Shown in pieces: positions 1,953-54,205 of a stretch of 64,000 nt of DNA. The notes under the pieces were generated by a model, which saw nothing but the letters and a program-made list of their open reading frames with translations, was not told the origin of the DNA and ran no database searches. The position numbers and the translations under genes are program-made. Each line of letters starts with the position of its first letter. Positions within the stretch are counted from its first letter, which is position 1. The DNA is from Streptomyces huasconensis (GTDB taxonomy: Bacteria > Actinomycetota > Actinomycetes > Streptomycetales > Streptomycetaceae): positions 1 to 64,000 of the forward strand of contig RBWT01000003.1 in assembly GCA_004010275.1 (NCBI GenBank), in the 5' to 3' direction.

Positions 1953-4881
1953 ATGAGCGATCTCGGCAGTGACCCCGGCAGTCGCCTCGGCCGTGCCCCC
2001 GACAGCGATCCCACGCGTGCCTCCGGCACCGATCCGGGCGGCCTCGGGCGGGAGTTGCGCGCGGCCGTGCGCGGGCCGGTGGACCTCTCCGTGACCGCGC
2101 GGGCCCTGCACACCATGGACGCCTCCAACTACCGCCGGGTGCCCGCCGCGGTGGTGGCCCCGCACGACGCCGACGACGTGGCGGCGGTGCTCGACGTCTG
2201 CCGGCGGCGGGGCGTGCCGGTGGTGGCGCGCGGCGCGGGCACCTCGATCGCCGGGCAGGCGACCGGCACCGGCGTCGTCCTCGACTTCACCCGGCGGATG
2301 AACCGCGTCGTCTCCCTCGACCCCGAGGCCCGGACCGCCGTCGTCCAGCCGGGGGTCGTCCTGGACGACCTGCGCGCGGCGGCGGCCCCGTACGGACTGA
2401 CGTTCGGCCCCGATCCGTCGACGCACAGCCGGTGCACGCTGGGCGGGATGATCGGCAACAACTCGTGCGGGTCGCACTCGGTGGCCTGGGGCACGACGGC
2501 CGACAACGTCCGCTCCCTGTCCGTCATCGGCGCACAGGGCGACACCCACCGCCTCGGGCAGGGCTGGGCCGGAGCCCCCGACGGCCTGCGCGCCCGCGTC
2601 GAGGGCCACCTGGCCCTGCTGCGCACCGGCTACCCCGACCTGCCGCGCCGCATCTCCGGTTACGCCCTCGACGCCCTCCTCCCCGAACGCGGGCCCGACC
2701 TCGCCCGCGCCTTCTGCGGCTCGGAGGGCACCCTCGGCCTCCTCACCGAAGCCGTCGTACGCCTCGTCGAGGCCCCCCGCGCGCGGGCGCTCGCCGTCCT
2801 CGGGTACGCCGAGGAGAGCGCCGCGGCCGAGGCCGCCGCCGGCCTCCTGCCGTACGGCCCGCTGACCGTCGAGGGCATGGCGGCCGACCTCGTCCGGGGC
2901 GCGGGCGCGCGGGAGAACGTCCTTCCCCGGGGCGGCGCCTGGCTGTTCGTGGAGACGGGCGGTGACAGCCCGCCGAGCACGCGCGCGTGCCGAGACTCGT
3001 GCGCGCCGCCGACGTCCTTACGCCGTGGTCGTCGACGACCCGGCGGGGCAGCGGGCGCTGTGGCGCGTGCGGGAGGACGCCAGCGGGACGGCCACCCGTA
3101 TCCCGGGCCCCGCGCAGGGCGGCCCCGGCGCAGGGCACGCGCGGAGGCCTGGCCCGGCTGGGAGGACTGCGCCGTGCCCCCGGCCCGCCTCGGCGCCTAC
3201 CTGCGCGACTTCCGCGCGCTGCTCGCCGGGCTCGGCCTGCGCGGCACCCCGTACGGGCACTTCGGGGACGGCTGCATCCACGTACGCATCGACTTCGACC
3301 TGATCACCCCCGAGGGCGTGGCCCGCTTCCGCCGCTTCTCGGAGGAGCTGGCGGACCTCGTCGTCGCGCACGGCGGCTCGCTCTCCGGTGAGCACGGCGA
3401 CGGACAGGCCCGCGCCGAATTGCTGCCGAAGATGTACGGGCCCGAACTCGTCGCCCTCTTCGCGCGCGTGAAGGACGTCTGGGACCCGGCGGGCCTGCTC
3501 AACCCCGGCATGCTGGTGCGGCCCGCGCCCCTCGACACCAACCTGCGGTTCGCGCCCTTGCCACGCGAGCCTGTCGACGTGGCCTTCGGCTACCCCAGTG
3601 ACGGCGCCGACGGCGGTGACTTCTCCGCGGCGGTCAGGCGGTGCGTGGGCGTCGCCAAGTGCCGTACGGCGGCGGCGCCCCCGGCAGGCGGCGTCATGTG
3701 TCCGTCCTTCCGGGCCACGGGCGAGGAGGAGCACTCCACGCGCGGCCGGGCGCGGCTGCTGCACGAGATGCTCGCGGGCGAGGTCGTGACGGACGGCTGG
3801 CGTTCGACGGAGGTCAGGGACGCGCTCGACCTCTGCCTGTCCTGCAAGGGATGCCGCTCGGACTGCCCGGTGGGCGTCGACATGGCCACGTACAAGGCGG
3901 AGTTCCTGCACCACCACTACGAAGGGCGCCGCAGGCCCGCCGCGCACTACGCGATGGGGTGGCTGCCGCGCTGGCTGCGGGCCGTCGCCGCGACGCGTAC
4001 GGCTCCCCTGGTCAACGCCCTCGCCCGGGTGGGCCCGTTGGCGGCGCTCGGCAAGCGGCTCGGCGGGATCGCGCCGGAGCGGGCACTCCCGGCCGTGGCG
4101 CCGCGCACGCTGCGGCAGTGGTGGCGCCGCAGGCCGAAGGGCGGGGCCGGGCCCGCGTCGGTCGTCCTGTGGCCCGACACCTTCACCGACCACCTCTCGC
4201 CCTCCGTGGGACGGGCGGCGGTACGGGTCCTGGAGGACGCCGGGCTGAGCGTCGCGCTGCCGCCGCGCGAGGCGTGTGCTGCGGGCTGACGTACATCTCG
4301 ACGGGGCAGCTCGACCGGGCCCGCGCGGTGCTGCGCGCCACCCTGGACCGCGTGGCCCCGCTCCTCGCGGCCGGGGCGCCGGTCGTCGTCCTGGAGCCGA
4401 GCTGCGCGGCGGCCCTGAAGACCGACCTCGTAGAACTGCTGGGCGACGACCCGCGCGCGCACCGCCTCGCCGCGTCCGTACGGACCTTCGCGCAGGCCCT
4501 CGAAGAACTCGCCCCGCAGTGGAGCCCGCCGTACGTCGGCCGCGAGGCGGTCGGCCAGACGCACTGCCACCAGCACGCGGTCCTCGGCGACGCGGCGGAA
4601 CGGCGGCTGCGCGCGAAGGCGGGCATCGAGGGCGAGCTGAGCGGCGGCTGCTGCGGGCTCGCCGGGAACTTCGGCTTCGAGAAGGGGCATTACGAGGTCT
4701 CCGTGGCCTGCGCGGAGGAACAGCTGCTGCCCGCGGTGCGCCGGGCGTCCGGTGACGCGGTGGTCGCGCCGACGGCTTCTCCTGCCGGACCCAGCTGGGG
4801 CAGCTGGCGGGGGTGCGGGGGTGGCACCTGGCGGAGATCCTCGCGGGGGCGCTGGAGCGGGAGGCCGGGGCGGGGCGGTGA
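1953..4881 (+). CDS. FAD-linked oxidase / Fe-S oxidoreductase fusion (D-lactate or glycolate dehydrogenase-like), frameshifted
   Basis: A GlcD-GlpC-type fusion expected to oxidise a 2-hydroxy acid and pass electrons through Fe-S clusters to the respiratory chain. The N-terminal PCMH FAD domain shows VARGAGTSIAGQATG and GGMIGNNSCGSHS. The FAD-oxidase C domain shows GHFGDGCIHVRIDF and SGEHGDGQARAELLPKMYG. The ferredoxin part has CLSCKGCRSDCPVGV and a second Cys set ending GGVMCPSF. Two CCG domains follow (CCGLTYISTG and CCGLAGNFGFE). The frame is lost at about 2965-3125, 4270 and 4765; the restored C-terminus reads EILAGALEREAGAGR before the stop at 4879-4881. The rebuilt length of about 975 residues is normal for this fusion. 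The start is the ATG at 1953. The substrate cannot be told from sequence. Confidence 0.85.
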
Positions 4882-5106: not shown

Positions 5107-6128
5107 GTGAACGTCTCGCGCAGCGATCAGGCGGCCCCGGCGGGAGCGCCGTCGGAGCCACCGGGGTGGCCCCCGAGAGGGCCCGTGGGGCGGCTCCCGA
5201 GGTGGCCCCCGTCGTGGCCCAGCAGCCGGAAGTCGCGGGTGCCGAGGCCGCCGCCGCGCCCCGGGGCGGCCTCCGCGCCCGGCTGGGACCGGTCGGGCTC
5301 GTCCTCGCGGGCAGCGTCTCCGTGCAGTTCGGCGGCGCGGTCGCGGTGAGCGTCATGCCGCGCGCCGGGGCGCTCGGCATCGTTGACGCTGCGGCTCGCG
5401 TTCGCCGCGCTCGTGCTGCTCGCCGTGTGCCGCCCGAAGCTGCGCGGGCACGCGCGGTCCGACTGGGGCACGGTGGTCGCCTTCGGCGTGACCATGGCCG
5501 GGATGAACGGCCTCTTCTACCAGTCCGTCGCCCGCATCCCCATGGGCCCCGCCGTCACCCTCGAAGTCCTCGGGCCGCTCGTGCTCTCCGTCTTCGCCTC
5601 GCGCCGCGCGGTGAACCTGGTCTGGGCCGGGCTGGCGCTCTGCGGGGTCTTCCTGCTCGGCGGCGGGGGCGGCTTCAGCGGCCTCGATCCGGTCGGCGTC
5701 GCCTACGCGCTCGGCGCGGGCGCGATGTGGGCCGCGTACATCGTCTTCAGCGCGCGCACCGGACGGCGCTTCCCGCAGGCCGACGGGCTGGCCCTCGCGA
5801 TGGTCGTCGCGGCGGTGCTGTTCCTGCCGCTCGGGATCATCGAGTCCGGGGCGAAGCTCGTCGAGCCGGGCACGCTGGCGCTGGGCGCGGTGGTCGCCGT
5901 GCTGTCGTCCGTGCTGCCGTACACCCTGGAACTCCTCGCGCTGCGGCGCCTGCCCTCGCACACCTTCGCGGTCCTGATGAGCCTGGAACCGGCCATCGCC
6001 GCCGTCGCCGGGTTCCTCGTCCTCAGCCAGGCCCTGACGCTCGCCGAGGCGCTGGCGATCTCCCTGGTCATCGTGGCGAGCATGGGCGCGGTGCGGACGC
6101 GAAGGCCGCGCGGAAGGCGGAGAGCTGA
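5107..6128 (+). CDS. EamA (DMT superfamily, RhtA-like) exporter, frameshifted
   Basis: A ten-helix drug/metabolite-type inner-membrane transporter, probably exporting amino acids or related small molecules as RhtA does. The GTG at 5107 opens an Ala/Pro-rich N-terminus, then helices such as GPVGLVLAGSVSVQFGGAVAV, and in a second frame LRLAFAALVLLAVCRP, GAGAMWAAYIVFSARTGRRF and AMVVAAVLFLPLGI. The second EamA repeat includes VLPYTLELLALRRLPSHTFAVL and LEPAIAAVAGFLVLSQ. Frame changes are needed near 5160, 5380 and 6100. With the last one the protein ends ADAKAARKAES at 6128 instead of running into the next gene. The next gene begins two bases later, so the two are probably co-transcribed. Confidence 0.8.
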
Positions 6129-21962: not shown

Positions 21963-22231
21963 GGTTGTGCGGTGCCCGGAGCGGTTCCTAGGGTGGCGTG
22001 CACACGAGAAGGGAGGTGGTTCGGCAGATGTATGGAAACCGGACGCGTGAGGTGACTGCGGGCTAGCGGCCCGTCGTCGCAGTACGAATTCGGCGCCGGA
22101 CCAGCACGTGTGATGTGCGTGCAGCCGGCCCTATTCCCAAGCAGTCACCCGACCCGCGAGCCGCCGGTACGTCCGGCCGGCTTCCTGTCGCCCCGGCCCG
22201 TCCGGCGCGGCGGGAACCACGGCTCGCGGGT
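21963..22231 (+). ncRNA. Candidate orphan structured RNA with a 12-codon ORF
   Basis: A possible promoter (TTGTGC at 21963, then TAGGGT after 18 bp) precedes a strong ribosome site GGGAGGTGG and a tiny ORF (22028-22066). Downstream, a perfect 12-bp inverted repeat pairs ACCCGCGAGCCG (22152-22163) with CGGCTCGCGGGT (22220-22231) around a GC-rich inner loop. No plus-strand gene follows; the next gene is convergent. The unit therefore looks like a free-standing dual-function or attenuator-like RNA. The conservation that would prove it cannot be seen here. Confidence 0.45.
22028..22066 (+). CDS. 12-codon leader-like peptide ORF
   Basis: ATG to TAG encodes MYGNRTREVTAG. The ribosome site GGGAGGTGG ends 9 bases before the ATG, stronger than most sites in this window. 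There are no runs of a single regulatory amino acid. The peptide itself may be irrelevant, with translation controlling folding of the downstream hairpin. It is too short for coding statistics, so confidence rests on the ribosome site and context. Confidence 0.4.
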   Translation: MYGNRTREVTAG

Positions 22232-22276
22232 CGCCTGCGTTCCGGCACGGCGCCTTGCGCCTCCCGCCTCGCCCCC

Positions 22277-48244: not shown

Positions 48245-49069
48245 CTACGGCTTGGGGGCCTCGAATGTGACCGGCGCCTCGAAAGCCGCCCGCCGCGTGG
48301 CCCGCCGCAGCGCCTTCAGGACGGCCGGCCCGAGCGCGAGACTCAGGACGACCGTCACCACGGCCCGCGGCAGGTCCCAGCCCAGCGACGTGGCCAGGCA
48401 GTACGCGACGAAGCGGGCCAGGTTCTCCGCGAGGGGGTCGCCGGGCACGAAGGAGACACCGGTGGCCAGGCCGCCGAGGTAGGGCCAGCCCTGGAGGTTC
48501 ATGACCGTGCCGTACAGGACCGAGGCCACCGCCCCATAGGCGGCCAGCAGCCACAGCTCCCCGCGGCCCCGCAGCGTGCCGGCGCCCGGCAGCAGCCCCG
48601 CGCCCATGCAGACCCACCCCATCGACAGCATCTGGAAGGGCATCCACGGCCCGACGCCCCCGGTGAGCAGCGCCGAGGCGAACATCGACACCGCCCCGAG
48701 CACGAACCCGAAGCCGGGGCCCAGCACCCGCCCGCTCAGCACCATCAGGAAGAACATGGGCTCGATGCCCGCCGTGCCCGCGCCCAGCGGCCGCAGCGCC
48801 GCCCCCGCCGCGGCCAGCACGCCCAGCATGGCGATGGCCTTGGCGTCCAGGCCGACGTCCGCGATGGTACCACGACCACGGCGAGCAGCAGCGGCAGCAG
48901 CGCCGCGAAGAGCCAGGGCGCGTCCCCCGCGTGCGTACCGATGCCCGAGTCGCCGTCCGCGAGCAGCGGCCACCCGAACGCGGCCACCCCCACGGCGCTG
49001 GCCAGCGCGAGCGCCACGATCGAGCGGGGGCCGAGGCGGACGGGCCGGGCCTGCGGTCGCGGCGCTCAC
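48245..49069 (-). CDS. ECF transporter S component (probable cobalamin), frameshifted
   Basis: About 275 residues from a GTG in a four-base overlap with the ATPase stop. Membrane protein: MALALASAVGVAAFGWPLLA and WLFAALLPLLLAVVVV in one frame, then DAKAIAMLGVLAAAGAALRP, PMFFLMVLSGRVLGPGFGFV, LGAVSMFASALLTGGVGPWM and PFQMLSMGWVCMGAGLLPG. The AMLGVLAAAGAALRPLG and GPWMPFQM stretches are characteristic of the CbrT-like S-component group. Frame changes are near 48860 and 49040. As substrate-binding subunit of the ECF complex it sets specificity. Cobalamin is inferred from the riboswitch heading the operon. Confidence 0.78.
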   Translation of the reverse strand: MSAATAGPARPPRPPLDRGARAGQRRGGGRVRVAAARGRRLGHRYARGGRALALRGAAAAAARRGRGTIADVGLDAKAIAMLGVLAAAGAALRPLGAGTAGIEPMFFLMVLSGRVLGPGFGFVLGAVSMFASALLTGGVGPWMPFQMLSMGWVCMGAGLLPGAGTLRGRGELWLLAAYGAVASVLYGTVMNLQGWPYLGGLATGVSFVPGDPLAENLARFVAYCLATSLGWDLPRAVVTVVLSLALGPAVLKALRRATRRAAFEAPVTFEAPKP

Positions 49070-50752
49070 GACGCGTCCCCTGCCGCGCCCAGCGCCTCGC
49101 GCACCTGCGCCACCGTCAGCCACTCCCGCGGCGCCAGGATCTTGGTGACCTGGGGTGCGAAGGAGGGCGAGGACACCACGATCTGCGGGGTCGGTCGGGC
49201 CGTCCGCGACGACCTCGCCGTCCGCGAGGATCACCACCCGGTGGGCGATCTCGGCGGCCAGCTCCACGTCGTGCGTGGCCAGCACGATCGCGTGGCCCTC
49301 GGCGGCGAGGCCCCGCAGGATCGTGACCAGGCGGGCCTTGGCCGCGTAGTCCAGGCCGCGGGTCGGCTCGTCGAGGAGGAGAAGGGGAGGGCGCGCGGTC
49401 AGCACGATCGCCAGGGCGAGCGCGAGCCGCTGGCCCTCGGAGAGGTCCCGGGGGTGCGTGTCGTCCGCGATGCCCGGCAGCAGCTCGCTCACCAGGGCGC
49501 GGCACGTGCCGGGCGCGGCGTCCGCGTCCCGGTCGGCGGCGGCGCACTCGGCGGTCACGGTGTCCGCGTAGAGCAGGTCGCGCGGTTCCTGGGGGACCAG
49601 GCCGACGTGCCGGACCAGCTCGCGCGGGGCGGTGCGGTGCGGGACGGCGCCGCCGACGCGGACGGTGCCCGAGGTGGGTTCGAGGAGGCCGACCAGGGTG
49701 GACAGGAGCGTGGACTTCCCGGCGCCGTTGCGGCCCATGAGGGCGACCGTCTCACCGGGCGTCACCGCAGGTCGACGCGGCGCAGCGCCTCGACGCGGCC
49801 GCGCCGCACGGCGAGGCGTTCGACGCGCGCCGCCGCCGTCTTGTCGGTGTCGTACGTACGTTCCTTGCGCAGCCGGGGCCACCGGCCGGACGGCCGCTCC
49901 ACGGGGCGTACGCCGTCTCCTCCTGGCGCGCGCGCGCGGTCCGCGAGCCGCTCCCGCAGCGCGCCCGCCCTGCGCCGCGCGTCCCGCACGGTCAGCGGCA
50001 ACGGCGACCAGCCCGCGAGACGCCCGAGGGCGACCACCGGCGGGAAGACGGGGGAGCGCGCCATCAGCTCCGCCGGGTCGCCGAGCACCGGCGGCTCGCC
50101 CGGCGCCGCGAGCAGCAGCACCTGATCCGCGTACTGCACGACCCGTTCGAGCCGGTGCTCGGCCATCAGCACCGTCGTGCCCAGGTCGTGGACGAGCCGC
50201 TGGAGCACCGCGAGGACCTCCTCGGCGGCGGCCGGGTCGAGCGCGGAGGTCGGCTCGTCCAGGACGAGGACCTGGGGGTGAGGAGTGAGGACCGAGCCGA
50301 TCGCGACGCGCTGGCGCTGACCACCGGAGAGCGTCGCGATGGGGCGGTCGCGCAGGTCGGCGAGGCCGAGCAGGTCGAGGGTCTCCTCCACCCGGCGGCG
50401 CATCACATCCGGCGCGAGACCGAGCGACTCCATGCCGTACGCCAGTTCGTCCTCGACGGTGTCCGTCACGAAGTGGGCGAGGGGGTCCTGGCCCACCGTG
50501 CCGACGACGTCGGCGAGTTCGCGCGGCTTGTGGGTACGGGTGTCACGGCCCGCCACGGTCACCCGGCCGCGCAGGGTGCCGCCCGTGAAGTGCGGCACGA
50601 GACCGCTGACCGTGCCGAGCAATGTCGACTTGCCGACCCCGGACGGGCCGACGAGCAGCACCAGTTCACCCTCGGGGACGGTGAGGTCGACGCCCCGGAC
50701 GGTGGGCCCCGCAGCGCCCTCGTACGTCACGGAGACGTCCTCGAAGCGGATC
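49066..50752 (-). CDS. Fused double ECF-type ABC ATPase, frameshifted
   Basis: About 562 residues from the ATG at 50752 (MIRFEDVSVTYEGAAG), overlapping the CbiQ stop. Two complete ATPase domains in one chain, equivalent to EcfA1 plus EcfA2. First: Walker A VGPSGVGKSTLLG, signature LSGGQRQRVAIGSVL, Walker B VLVLDEPTSALDP, H-loop MAEHRLERV. Second: MGRNGAGKSTLLSTLVG, LSEGQRLALALAIVL (LSEGQ variant), PLLLLDEPTRGLDY, LATHDVELA. The frame breaks between the domains (about 49765) and near 49190. The restored C-terminus reads QVREALGAAGDAS. It energises the ECF complex from the cytoplasmic side. Confidence 0.85.
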
Positions 50753-51915
50753 ATGAGGTCTCCTTGGCTGATACGGGGGAGGGAAGCGCCGGGGTCGGCG
50801 GTGCCGGCGCCACGAAGGCCGGCAGCAGTCCGAGGAGCACCGCCAGCGCGGGCCACAGCGGCAGCGCGGGCGCGATCAGCGGTACGACGCCGGGGTGCAG
50901 GGCCGCCGGGTCGGACGACGCGGCCCAGATCACCAGGCCCGCCACGGCGATCCCCGACCCGGAGACCAGCCAGGCCCGCACACCCCACCGGTCGGGCCGG
51001 TAGCGGGTGCGCACGGCACGGCGGCCCCCCAGCCGCAGCCCCGCGAGCGCCGCCAGCAGCCCGGCCACCAGCACGGGCACGCCGTACGAGCGCCCTGCGC
51101 GGTCAGCAGTCCGTATGTCCCCACGCAGACGCCGCAGGCGCCCAGCGTCAGCGCGGCGATGGCCCTGCGCACACCCGCGGGCACGGCGGCGCTGCGGCCG
51201 AAGCCCCGCGCGTCCATGGCGGCGGCCAGCGCCACCGACCGCTCCAAGGCGCCCTCCAGGACCGGCAGGCCGACCTGGAGCAGCCCCCGCACACCCTTGT
51301 CGGAGCGCCCCCGCAGCCGCCGCGCGGACCGCAGCCGCTGCACGTCCGCGATGAGGTTCGGCGCGAAGGTCATCGCCACCACGACGGCGACCCCGACCTC
51401 GTACAACGCGCCCGGCAGCGACTTCAGCAGCCGGGACGGGCTCGCCAGGGCGTTCGCCGCGCCGACACAGATCAGCAGGCCGGCCAGTCTGATCCCGTCG
51501 TAGAGCGCGAAGAGCACGCCCTCCGCCGTGACCCGGCCGCCGATGCGCACACCCTTGGCCCAGTCGGGCAGCGGAACCTCCGGCAGCGTCACCAGGACGT
51601 GCGTGCCCGGGATCGGCGACCCCAGCACGATCGCGAAGACCAGCCGGATGCCGATGACGAGCAGCGCCAGCTTCACGAACGCGCCGTACGACTTCGCCCA
51701 CGGCGCCGAGGTCCGACGCGCCGCCACCACATAGCCCGCGACGCCGATCAGCAGCGCGATCAGCAGCGGGTTCGTCGTCCGGGACGCGGCGGTGCCGAGC
51801 CCGAGCGCCCACACCCACCAGGCGCCCGGGTGCAGGGCGTTGCTCCGGTGCGCCTCGGGGGCGCGGCGGCGGCTCAGGAGGCCGCCGCGCGGGCATGGCC
51901 GGTCAGGTCCCTCAT
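50751..51915 (-). CDS. ECF transporter T component (CbiQ-like), frameshifted
   Basis: The likely start is an ATG near 51915 (MRDLTGHARAAA), with an indel near 51880; a GTG at 51814 would give a shorter but intact beginning. Membrane segments include NPLLIALLIGVAGYVVAARR, KLALLVIGIRLVFAIVLGSP, GIRLAGLLICVGAANALASP and VGVAVVVAMTFAPNLIADVQ. The coupling helices with Ala-Arg-Gly motifs are seen as LRSARRLRGRS and MDARGFGRSA. After a second indel near 51090 the C-terminus has PVLVAGLLAALAGLRLGGRR and further hydrophobic helices. It links the S component to the double ATPase. The stop overlaps the ATPase start. Confidence 0.8.
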
Positions 51916-51946
51916 CGTGCTGTCCGTGTCCGAGTCCGGTGCCGCG

Positions 51947-52632
51947 TCAGCCGCGACGGCGCCGGGTCTGCCAGAACGCGGCGCCGCCGAGCGCCGCCAC
52001 CACGGCGATCCCGGCGATCAGACCCACGGAGGGCCCGCCGTCGTCCTGGTCCTGGTGCTCCTTCTCCCCGGCGCGGGAGCGGTCCGTCCCGTCCGCGGAG
52101 ACCTGCTCGCCGCAGCCCGACTTCGGGTAGCCGTCGACGGCGCACAGCAGCGCCTTGCTGTCGTAGCGCAGCGGCGCGGCGACCGAGGCGAGCGCCTCCG
52201 CGCTGGTGGCGTCCCGCGCGACCCGCGCGCAGGCCACCCGCCGTGCGGGCGGCGACTCACCGCGCGGCGCGTCCTCGCGCGTACCGAAGTCGAGGACGAG
52301 AGCCACCCGCTTGCGGCCGTCCCGGGCGGGCGTCTTCGCGCAGATGTCGGAGAAGACCGCGGTCCGCGCGGCTTGGCGGCGTCCTGGGAGTTCGCCGAGA
52401 CCGCGAAGCGGAACCCCTGCACGGCACCGTCCTCGGGGCGGGCGGTGCCGGGGCCCTGAGTGGCGTACGTCCAGGTGTCGCCGTCCCGGTCCCAGAACGA
52501 CCAGTAGCGGTAGCCGGCGGCCGGGGAGGGCGCGGCGGCGAGGACGCACAGCAGCGCGGCGAGCAGCGCCCCGACCGCCGTGCGCCCGCGCCACCCGTGG
52601 CCCCGAGTCCGGCCCGTCCGGCCCCGCGTCAC
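51947..52632 (-). CDS. SCO2322-family secreted protein with C-terminal anchor, frameshifted
   Basis: About 228 residues from the GTG at 52632, overlapping the preceding gene's stop. Signal peptide TAVGALLAALLCVLAAAPSP with AAG cleavage, then GYRYWSFWDRDGDTWTYATQ and VQGFRFAVSANSQDAAKPRG. After an indel near 52368 it continues SDICAKTPARDGRKRVALVL, CAVDGYPKSGCGEQVSADG and a C-terminal membrane helix GLIAGIAVVAALGGAAFWQ followed by RRRR. I recognise it as the SCO2322 family, always found with this ECF cluster. The role is unknown. An extracellular domain tethered to the membrane next to a B12 importer suggests help in ligand capture. Confidence 0.75.
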
Positions 52633-53896
52633 GGCTGCTGCTTCTTGCGGTTGGCGCTGTACAGGAAGCCGATGCCGATGCCGGCGACCATGCCGACGCC
52701 GATGATCCACCAGATGCTGACGCCTCCGTCCTCCTTCTTCTCGTCGGACTCGCGTCCGCGGCGGAGTCCGACGCGGAGCCCTTCTCCGGCGGCGGGCCCT
52801 GGGCGGTCAGCCGCTCGACGAGGTCGGCGCCGCCGAAGTCACGGGGGTCCATGCCGGCCGCGCGGGCGGCGAAGACGAGCTGGGCGTAGGCGGCGGGGCC
52901 GGACTGCTTCGCCCAGGCCGCGGAGTTCTTCGCGAGCCACTCGGCGGACTTCCCGGCCTGCTCGCTCTGCCCGGCGGCGGCGAGGGCGACCACGGCGTCG
53001 GCGGTGTTGCCCTGGTCCGGCTGGTCCTTGGCGCCCGGCATGGCGGACATGAGGTGGTCGTCGTGCTTGCCGAGCAGCTTCAGCAGGAAGCCCGTGCCGT
53101 TGCTCGCCGCCTGTGAGGCGGTGGCGGGCTTCGCGCACTTGGGGGCCTCGCCCGCGGCCTTCTTGCCCGGTGTCACGACGAGGCCCTTGCCGAGGCTGCC
53201 GAGCACACCGGCCGCGGTGGCGTCCGCGTTCGGCGAGAGCTTGCCGGACTTGGCGTCGGCGAGACCGAAGGCGCCGTCGCCCTTGCCGCAGTCCATGGCG
53301 AGCTTCGGCAGCGCGTCGTAGGCCGACCTGCCCTTCTGCGACTTGACGTCCGCGGGGTTCTCCCCGGCCGCGGCGAGGGCGCCGACGACGATGCCGGTGG
53401 AGTTGGCGTCGGAGGGCAGACCGGGGTTGCAGCCCCAGCCGCCGTCCTGGTTCTGCACGGACTTCAGCCAGGCCACGCCCTTGTCGACCGTCTCGGCCAG
53501 GCTCTTGTCCTGTCCCTTGTCCTGGCTCTTGTCGTCGCCGCCGAGGGCGGCGAGGGCCTGGACGGCGGCGGCGGTGGAGTTGCTGTCGACCGGCGTCTTG
53601 GAGTTGCACGGCTCGCTCGCGTCGGCGCGGTAGGCGGCGAAGCCACCGCTCGCGCACTGCTGCCCGGTCAGCCAGGTCACGGCCTTCCGGGCGGGCCGGA
53701 CATCCGCGGTGTCCAGGGCGAGCAGGGCGTACGACTGCCGGAAGACGCCGTCGAACTTCGGGTCCGACTTGCCGTACAGGCCCGAGGGGAGCGCGGTCGA
53801 GGGCGACGGGGCGTCGTCCGCGAAAGCGGCCGGTGCGGCGGCCGAGCCGAACACGGCGACGGCGGCCAGGACCGCTGCGCTGCGGCGAACGTTCAT
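52629..53896 (-). CDS. Intrinsic-factor-like alpha6/alpha6-barrel, membrane-anchored surface protein, frameshifted
   Basis: About 422 residues from the ATG at 53896. Signal peptide AAVLAAVAVFGSAAAPAAFA. Repeats of the squalene-cyclase/prenyltransferase type (QW-like): AVTWLTGQQCASGGFAAYRA, SNSTAAAVQALAALGG, GVAWLKSVQNQDGGWGCNPG, SNSTGIVVGALAAAGENPAD, GNTADAVVALAAAG. No DxDD or other cyclase acid motif is present. After an indel near 52752 the C-terminus is a membrane helix (WWIIGVGMVAGIGIGFLYSA) with NRKKQQP. This fold is also that of the cobalamin-binding half of human intrinsic factor and transcobalamin. With a cobalamin-type riboswitch in front and an ECF importer behind, a surface B12-binding role fits better than terpene cyclisation. 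Confidence 0.75.
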
Positions 53897-53997
53897 GATG
53901 CGGCGGGTTGCCTCTCCCTGCGGGGAGCGGGGCGGCACGGACCGTGCGGGCACGGCTTCCGGGCGGCTCCGGCTCCGTATACCTCGACGGTGCCGCT

Positions 53998-54180
53998 CAT
54001 CGGGGGTCCCGATGAAGCGAGCCGGTCACGGTTCCGCGCCGGGCCTTCCGGCTTACCGCCGAGCGGTACACGGAATGGGGCCTCCCCTGCTCGAACCAAG
54101 CCGAGAGCTCGGGGAAGGGTCAGCGCCGGATTCGCACCGGCTTCCCCCTGCGCGGACGTGAGGACGACCCGGTCACTCTA
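53998..54180 (-). promoter_or_regulatory. Cobalamin riboswitch (leader of the ECF operon)
   Basis: On the minus strand the RNA contains the cobalamin-riboswitch core as GGGAAGCCGGUGCGAAUCC followed by GGCGCUGACCC (about 54147-54117), matching the GGGAA...GGUG...AAUCC...GACCC B12-box pattern. A helix-rich region follows, then a hairpin CATCGGG-ACC-CCCGATG (54014-53998), about 100 nt before the start codon, that may be the expression platform. The usual GCCACUGU continuation is not obvious, so it may be a variant class. It should turn the operon off when adenosyl- or other cobalamin is plentiful. Confidence 0.8.
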
Positions 54181-54205
54181 CCGGCCGGTCCGCGCGCGCC
54201 CCCGG

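Follow-up and report, generated by a model that had tools for sequence, protein, structure and literature searches.

A Streptomyces operon likely to scavenge corrinoids through a split, doubly permuted intrinsic-factor-like clamp and a B12 ECF importer

The window, a stretch of 64,000 nucleotides from Streptomyces huasconensis (contig RBWT01000003.1), contains an operon that is likely to serve corrinoid (vitamin B12) scavenging, in which a B12 ECF importer is supplied by a split clamp that resembles intrinsic factor and is permuted in both halves. The operon, its leader family, the barrel and beta homologies with their permutations, the fold similarity of a fused relative and the shared riboswitch control were established computationally. 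The SCO2321 barrel would be the alpha half holding the binding cavity, and SCO2322 would form a beta-grasp cap over it. As exported and C-terminally membrane-anchored proteins, the two would make up a two-chain clamp equivalent to intrinsic factor or transcobalamin. This clamp would catch a cobamide outside the membrane and deliver it to the S component of the ECF importer, import would be powered by CbiQ and the fused ATPase, and ample coenzyme B12 would turn the operon off through its cobalamin riboswitch. We infer that the halves bind the ligand, assemble around it and hand it to the importer. There is a slight lean towards a more specific form of this proposal, a naturally split intrinsic factor whose tethered, permuted chains would have to meet the cobamide together before they close on it; assembly driven by the ligand beside the importer would then be capture and hand-off in one.

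The gene set of the original prediction, namely the leader, the barrel, SCO2322, CbiQ, the two-domain ATPase and the S component, is borne out by NCBIfam and Pfam matches for the genes and by a lineage leader model for the leader (Table 1). The genes had been taken as intact, and this does not hold for the draft assembly, in which every one of the five is interrupted. At least six frame changes were mapped by tblastn with the proteins of one relative (L123) as queries: two in the ATPase and one in each of the other genes. All five frames are open in the three relatives fetched in full, and barrel and SCO2322 are intact, as separate genes, in 30 of 30 same-genus relatives (the best 30 of 36 genomes above the barrel-family cut-off). 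The CobN gene of the window genome is also spread over two frames, and other split matches are present elsewhere in the genome. Because CobN and other genes are split as well and the relatives are intact, the frame changes are likelier to be assembly errors than pseudogene decay. Four-base overlaps had been claimed for all junctions; they are present at three of the four (52629-52632, 50751-50754 and 49066-49069), and none is seen between SCO2322 and CbiQ. The overlap of barrel and SCO2322 recurs in 23 of the 30 relatives.

Table 1. Features of the proposed corrinoid-scavenging operon in the window
Feature	Position	Strand	Evidence
Cobalamin-type riboswitch leader, insertion-bearing copy	54022..54181	-	RF00174 23.7 bits (below cut-off 31.5); lineage model R1 76.4 bits; family covariation
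TAGAGT, -10-like, directly before leader element	54175..54180	-	GTAnAGT invariant in 16 aligned relatives
Palindromic dispersed element within aptamer, replacing CGCAA of relatives	54074..54117	-	Comparison with relatives
Secreted toroid barrel of the SCO2321 family, anchored in the membrane by its C-terminus; proposed alpha half of clamp; frame change near 52751	52629..53896	-	NF053823 517 bits; PF13243, PF00432; tblastn pieces
Secreted, GPS-CTERM-anchored protein of the SCO2322 family; apparently a permuted transcobalamin-like beta domain; frame changes near 52363	51947..52632	-	NF040672, NF040681; permutation from its relatives; tblastn
Transmembrane (T) component CbiQ/EcfT with uncertain start; frame changes near 51085	50751..51896	-	PF02361; tblastn
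ECF ATPase with two domains (CbiO duplication); frame changes twice, at roughly 49765 and 49194	49066..50754	-	PF00005 in both halves; tblastn
S component of the ECF importer; frame changes near 48870	48245..49069	-	PF12822; tblastn

The SCO2322 protein of the window matches its own family NF040672 in two pieces, which score 70 and 137 bits against a family cut-off of 85. Pfam listed nothing for it, and NCBIfam gave only this family and C-terminal sorting motifs. The canonical beta profile is matched in swapped order by all 30 SCO2322 proteins of the relatives. Rotation of SCO2322 raises the beta-profile score from 92.9 over 53 columns to 151.9 over 119 columns, and the strand order in the predicted models agrees with the permutation. 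SCO2322 thus appears to be a circular permutant of the transcobalamin-like beta domain of other actinobacteria. The original prediction had described a two-protein device, and had not recognised SCO2322 as its permuted beta-domain half. At 19 beta-gene loci, CbiQ lies directly downstream in 18 and the barrel upstream in 14; one genome (G119) has an SCO2322-type gene with CbiQ and no barrel match. The canonical beta profile returned a single chance-level row from the PDB, and transcobalamin was not found by sequence. PF01122 is not among the Pfam matches listed for the window proteins, and no DUF4430 match is listed for these or for the proteins of the relatives. The permuted SCO2322 model found no PDB match with Foldseek (best E 2.0) and none with VIA-align. 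Both programs follow chain order, as far as is known, which makes permuted chains difficult for them to align. Because the aligners work in this way, the missing structure match is no sign of a new fold.

The barrel is the second permuted partner, its profile score rising from 246.6 to 356.1 on rotation. Of 37 genomes sampled in the genus, 36 have a barrel that exceeds the family cut-off, and the window copy is also matched above cut-off by the toroid models PF13243 and PF00432. The alpha/alpha toroid is supported by these Pfam models for the window barrel, and by a predicted fold that comes from the fused relative L098 only. These Pfam models are cyclase and prenyltransferase models, and the automatic label would make the barrel an exported terpene cyclase or prenyltransferase whose place beside a transporter is coincidental. 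Cyclases are also the nearest sequence profiles: squalene-hopene cyclases come closest among the 60 of 81 PDB matches listed for the fused-alignment profile, which include complement proteins and others and do not include transcobalamin. For the barrel, VIA-align likewise gives a higher Z score to terpene cyclases (24) than to intrinsic factor (20.5). DxDD(T/S) is the catalytic motif of class II terpene cyclases. As originally predicted, the barrel lacks it: the motif occurs in none of 61 barrels, the window copy included. The barrel is moreover exported and anchored, its linkage to the importer extends across the phylum, and cobalamin-clan riboswitch matches occur even at barrels that lie apart from the importer. 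The cyclase reading is highly improbable on this evidence, and a terpene-cyclase identity was rejected for want of the motif and in view of export and operon linkage.

A likeness to the animal carriers comes from one genus that carries barrel and beta domain as a single chain. The predicted model of one such protein, L098 (pLDDT 92.4, pTM 0.87), has transcobalamin or intrinsic factor as all of its 12 best PDB matches in Foldseek, with both domains aligned and E values of 6e-9 to 2e-7. The rigid fit is weak over the whole chain (TM-scores 0.36-0.47, rmsd 23-24 Å), which is ascribed to a different domain orientation. The lone beta domain 5no0 aligned to the model with a TMt of 0.62, an rmsd of 4.0 and an E value of 0.009, and PF01122 matches L098 below its cut-off (E 0.006). 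The expected structural resemblance to transcobalamin was seen with the fused model, to whose beta domain SCO2322 is tied by its permuted homology; the SCO2322 model itself gave no direct structure match. Transcobalamin, intrinsic factor and haptocorrin of animals share with L098 the plan of a toroid alpha domain and a beta-grasp domain. In contrast, the Streptomyces halves are two chains, both permuted relative to the fused form, and they are membrane-anchored and encoded in an operon with the importer. The one-chain arrangement is absent from the window and from all 30 same-genus relatives, which have separate genes.

A cobalamin-box core, GGGAAGCCGGTGCGAATCC, had been noted upstream of the barrel and is present at 54146-54128 on the minus strand. 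The predicted cobalamin leader is upheld at the level of the family, which has cobalamin-clan matches, but not by the score of the window copy, which stays below the RF00174 cut-off (E 4e-4 in a 451-base search); an Rfam scan of the whole window reported no cobalamin match. The lineage leader model matches the window with an E value of about 9e-16 on a rough calibration, and also 80 of 80 named Streptomyces loci. Among barrel leaders of the same genus, 21 of 30 have a cobalamin-clan match at E <= 0.1, with 13 above cut-off, and nine have none. In the leader family 96.3% of cells are paired and 11 pairs show changes on both sides, a level reached in 0 of 500 shuffles, for rows that had been fitted to the structure of the leader model. 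Many relatives' leaders score above the Rfam cut-offs for the cobalamin families RF00174 and RF01482 (AdoCbl), whereas the window copy differs from RF00174 by its score and by a palindromic insertion in place of the CGCAA stretch of standard relatives. The core of this palindrome occurs at 8 places in the genome with up to three mismatches, and a reversed control pattern at none. The insertion-bearing leader would presumably still switch, and TAGAGT ahead of it may be the promoter -10.

The riboswitch association is shared outside the genus. An above-cut-off match lies ahead of the barrel or beta gene in 10 of 20 fetched loci of other genera, and 12 of 17 barrel loci match cobalamin models at E <= 0.05 (6 above cut-off), the two sets having some genomes in common. 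Four genomes have the barrel and beta halves apart, and here each of the eight half-loci matches the cobalamin clan (E <= 0.003), three of them above cut-off. Linkage of the barrel and SCO2322 pair to the importer extends to other actinobacteria. The two-protein B12 capture device of the original prediction is therefore supported by computation through the leader family, the permuted beta homology and the model of the fused relative.

The importer consists of a T component, two ATPase domains and an S component in one operon, according to Pfam matches in the window and intact frames in three relatives. The fused ATPase has two P-loops within one frame in all three relatives, and the S component matches PF12822 with 33.7 bits (cut-off 30.7). 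The presence of CbiQ and CbiO homologues, which by their family names also belong to cobalt transporters, would fit an importer of cobalt (or nickel) that is regulated by B12 and assisted by the exported proteins, with a metal as cargo. Cobalt uptake can be under B12 riboswitch control. Against a metal cargo, the S component belongs to PF12822, and neither CbiM nor CbiN is among the Pfam and NCBIfam matches listed for the seven window pieces, with the NCBIfam list for the ATPase covering its first 25 rows. We also know of no metal-uptake system with a barrel and a transcobalamin-like cap, and this explanation is improbable.

The cargo could also be a B12 precursor or fragment (cobinamide or a lower-ligand base) or a non-B12 cobamide, with the importer serving salvage in a B12 producer. 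The genome encodes CobN and has nine further RF00174 matches elsewhere, because of which S. huasconensis probably makes B12 itself; with CobN present, uptake would therefore not be the sole source of B12. A PDB search with a 208-residue piece of the S component found no sequence relative, the solved CbrT included, and the piece is not near any solved S component by sequence. S components diverge strongly in sequence. A two-domain transcobalamin-like clamp is a better fit for a complete corrinoid than for a small base, and the precursor reading is possible but rather unlikely. Apart from the cargo, it overlaps with the B12 clamp.

BtuG of Bacteroides is a beta-propeller that works with an outer-membrane receptor, and its fold is unrelated to the proposed clamp. 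The likeness to the Bacteroides B12-capture lipoproteins, as these are introduced in PMC6143338, lies in surface proteins that catch B12 for a transporter. A cobalamin ECF importer was predicted by Rodionov et al. 2009, as cited in PMC5997447, and ECF-CbrT of Lactobacillus delbrueckii is such an importer with a cobalamin S component (PMC5997447). In that system several S components share one ECF module, and the account given there mentions no exported clamp, whereas the Streptomyces module lies in the same operon and has a fused two-domain ATPase. The nearest precedent is the description by Burroughs et al. 2007 (PMC1796856) of transcobalamin-like SLBB and toroid fusions, predicted to be exported B12 scavengers, whose operons contain CbiO and CbiQ. 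It was suggested there that paralogous beta proteins of one operon work together, and the clade was placed in animals, low-GC Gram-positives, planctomycetes and, less often, euryarchaea; the alignment legend includes the actinobacteria Corynebacterium glutamicum and Kineococcus. The architectures given in that paper are fusions, whereas the Streptomyces halves are separate and permuted, and the words "riboswitch", "permut" and "Streptomyces" do not occur in its main text. The split, permuted actinobacterial form seems to be new; it was for fused relatives beside CbiO and CbiQ, from other groups, that B12 scavenging was predicted in 2007. SCO2321 is named in PMC9237094 only because a delivery peptide was derived from its signal peptide, and the protein is called hypothetical. 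Searches of the open-licence literature found nothing on SCO2322 and no paper on the operon.

These results give a testable function to two families known by locus number alone, SCO2321 and SCO2322. They bear on the origin of the animal B12 carriers, because a single-chain relative in bacteria shares the two-domain plan of these carriers and lies in the same kind of operon. To our knowledge it is unusual for a two-part binding device to have both partners circularly permuted, and the doubly permuted pair would be a good model for the evolution of binding halves. The operon also suggests that bacteria which make B12 still invest in capturing it from outside.

The barrel that opens the coding part of the operon exceeds the Pfam cut-offs for the squalene-hopene cyclase C-terminal and prenyltransferase toroid domains. 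The original prediction had every gene overlapping the next by four bases; GTGA/ATGA overlap is present at three of the four junctions, but not between SCO2322 and CbiQ. At least six frame changes occur across the five window genes (tblastn, with the proteins of one relative as queries). The open frames of the operon are unbroken in all three relatives fetched in full, as are the barrel and SCO2322 genes in 30 of 30 same-genus relatives. Matches to CobN and GATase_3 elsewhere in the window's genome, a 467-contig draft, are likewise split, and assembly error is therefore likelier than decay of the operon. Frame changes are frequent in this draft (window 48245-53896; contigs C424 and C116 of the same genome, G000), and interrupted genes elsewhere in the window call for caution. 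The actinobacterial small RNA family Ms_IGR-5 (RF02471) is also matched in the window, at 22002-22239 on the plus strand (77.4 bits).

Parts of the operon and its leader in the window, and barrel-locus coordinates in two relatives
Feature	Position	Strand	Evidence or remark
Cobalamin-type leader	54181-54022	minus	first element of the operon
Palindromic element inside the cobalamin aptamer	54074-54117	minus	comparison with relatives
Secreted toroid barrel, SCO2321 family	53896-52629	minus	NF053823, 517 bits
SCO2322-family secreted protein	52632-51947	minus	NF040672 in two pieces; GPS-CTERM anchor at the end
CbiQ-type membrane protein	after SCO2322	minus	profile searches
Two-domain ATPase	after CbiQ	minus	profile searches
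ECF S component	3' end of the operon at 48245	minus	PF12822 above cut-off
Barrel locus L206, glycine-riboswitch neighbourhood	4136-4289; 5270-5477	minus; plus	
Barrel locus L101, glycine-riboswitch neighbourhood	971-1162	minus	

The two halves matched by the SCO2322 profile stand in the opposite order in other actinobacteria (genomes G447, G191, G423, and G341). A canonical beta profile made from 29 canonical-order domains matches the SCO2322 proteins of 30 of 30 same-genus relatives in two pieces and in swapped order, with about profile positions 87-146 first and about 17-87 second (whole-protein E 4e-15 to 1e-22 in a set of 30 sequences). In profile comparison, SCO2322 rotated at 54-60 scores 151.9 over 119 columns, versus 92.9 over 53 columns unrotated. 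Structures were predicted for two proteins, the SCO2322 core of locus L016 (AlphaFold, pLDDT 89.2, pTM 0.85) and the barrel-beta pair of locus L098 (pLDDT 92.4, pTM 0.87), and the strand-helix order of the former is that expected for the rotated beta domain of the latter. Profiles and models together indicate that SCO2322 is a permuted beta domain. The barrel behaves in the same way: compared with other-genus barrels, a profile of the same-genus barrels (with the window's) reaches 246.6 over 175 columns unrotated and 356.1 over 285 when rotated by about 204, a less clean result than that of SCO2322 owing to internal repeats. Permutation of one half does not always accompany that of the other: the barrels of L110, L111, and L112 retain the Streptomyces order next to a canonical beta domain.

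Three loci, all from a single genus (L098, L102, and L103), have barrel and canonical beta domain fused in one chain, and both fused proteins scanned with Pfam additionally carry cell-wall-binding domains. In Foldseek, transcobalamin and intrinsic factor take all 12 top PDB places for the L098 model, with both domains aligned (E 6e-9 to 2e-7); terpene cyclases come next at 1e-4, and the isolated transcobalamin beta domain 5no0 aligns at rank 34 (E 0.009, TMt 0.62, rmsd 4.0). The whole-chain fit is poor (TM-scores 0.36-0.47, rmsd 23-24 A), which is ascribed to differing domain orientation. The barrel alone is closer to the cyclases, which rank first in VIA-align (Z 24) ahead of intrinsic factor (Z 20.5, 330 residues aligned), and its sequence profile favours squalene-hopene cyclases. 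In line with the original prediction, the cyclase motif DxDD(T/S) is found in none of 61 barrels, and DxNST-type motifs, as sequence patterns, are common instead. Transcobalamin was not reached directly by sequence profiles or by the permuted SCO2322 model. The specific link to transcobalamin consequently rests on the two-domain combination and the genetic context.

The predicted cobalamin leader before the barrel is borne out for the lineage, but the window copy falls below the Rfam cut-off: RF00174 gives 23.7 bits against 31.5 (E 4e-4, 451-base search). Cobalamin-clan matches lie in the barrel leader of 21 of 30 same-genus loci at E <= 0.1, 13 of them above cut-off. Against a lineage covariance model derived from 16 standard leaders, the window scores 76.4 bits (E about 9e-16, rough calibration). 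The model also matches 80 of 80 named Streptomyces loci, every one in operon sense; these 80 were the best ones retained out of at least 537 relatives, and some may be among the genomes behind the model. All 80 have the barrel no more than 3 kb ahead of SCO2322 and in the same orientation, and CbiQ was found in 77. Across 81 leader matches 96.3% of cells are paired, with 11 pairs changed on both sides, the rows being fitted to the model's own structure, which favours this count. None of 500 shuffles reaches the observed pairing, and slid versions drop to 33-47%.

Compared with relatives, the window leader has a palindromic element of ~44 nt in the place of CGCAA between GCTGACC and CCGTG, which suggests that this replacement causes the low Rfam score. 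The core of the element has eight genome sites with up to three mismatches; the reversed control pattern has none. In the same-genus set of 31 leaders, which counts the window, the standard CGCAA stretch is present in 22, the element in seven (by eye), and neither in two (L032 and L035). By pattern, five further element-bearing leaders occur among the 80 named loci, and of the 81 leaders, counting the window, 66 are standard and nine were not parsed. The element replaces an otherwise conserved CGCAA in a Streptomyces minority. This dispersed element sits at the same aptamer position in the window, L010, L018, L021, L024, L029, L031, L132, L141, L172, L180, and L201. Downstream of the aptamer, the window has the conserved stretch CCGTCGAGGTATACGGAGCC at 53971-53990 (minus strand); CCGTCGAGG is present in 29 of 31 same-genus leaders, and this stretch is perhaps part of the expression platform.

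Phylum-wide searches covered 396 genomes for each profile. The SCO2322 profile had matches in 54, of which 13 passed the cut-off. The barrel profile had matches in 125, with 12 passing the cut-off, and generic toroids may account for many of its weak matches. A beta gene is present in 19 of 20 fetched loci, with CbiQ directly after it in 18 and a contig edge in the other, and with the barrel before it in 14. An above-cut-off cobalamin-clan riboswitch in the right sense precedes the barrel or beta gene in 10 of the 20. In 17 barrel loci, partly from the same genomes, a match lies upstream of the barrel at E <= 0.05 in 12 (six above cut-off). The barrel and beta-CbiQ genes are apart in G159, G191, G223, and G341, on different contigs or, in G341, at a distance of 0.86 Mb, and each of the eight half-loci carries a cobalamin-clan match of its own (E 7e-7 to 0.003; three above the curated cut-off). 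The strongest genetic argument for one common B12-related function is that the two halves are thus controlled separately. At locus L114 of genome G119, a permuted-order SCO2322-type gene is followed by CbiQ with no barrel match anywhere in that genome; the cap may lack a partner there, or the barrel may have diverged beyond detection. In two genera, the separately located barrel and its cobalamin-type riboswitch have a tandem glycine riboswitch close by, encoded on the other strand.

Burroughs et al. 2007 (PMC1796856) predicted B12 scavenging by bacterial toroid and transcobalamin-like proteins in CbiO/CbiQ operons and proposed a transfer to animals; besides animals, the clade described there includes low-GC Gram-positives, planctomycetes, and euryarchaea. 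The terms 'permut', 'riboswitch', and 'Streptomyces' are absent from its main text. For ECF-CbrT, Rodionov et al. 2009 (as cited in PMC5997447) predicted B12 transport, which was demonstrated for L. delbrueckii (PMC5997447). A search of open-licence literature found nothing on SCO2322, and for SCO2321 solely an unrelated use of its signal peptide. Given these predictions and this search, the transcobalamin-like scavenger with CbiO/CbiQ is not new, and the actinobacterial, split, doubly permuted form appears to be.

Computation supports the homology, operon, leader, and shared control, while binding, assembly, and hand-off are inferred; together they are best read as an exported clamp in two parts that feeds an ECF importer under B12 feedback. 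The barrel would form the alpha half and SCO2322 the cap, both membrane-held by C-terminal anchors. The clamp would catch a cobamide and hand it to the S component of the importer, which CbiQ and the fused ATPase would drive, while the riboswitch would exert B12 feedback on the operon. Cleaved fragments of intrinsic factor are able to reassemble around cobalamin, and by analogy a natural split clamp is plausible. As the window's genome contains CobN, the probable role of the system is salvage or re-use of cobamides by an organism that makes B12 itself.
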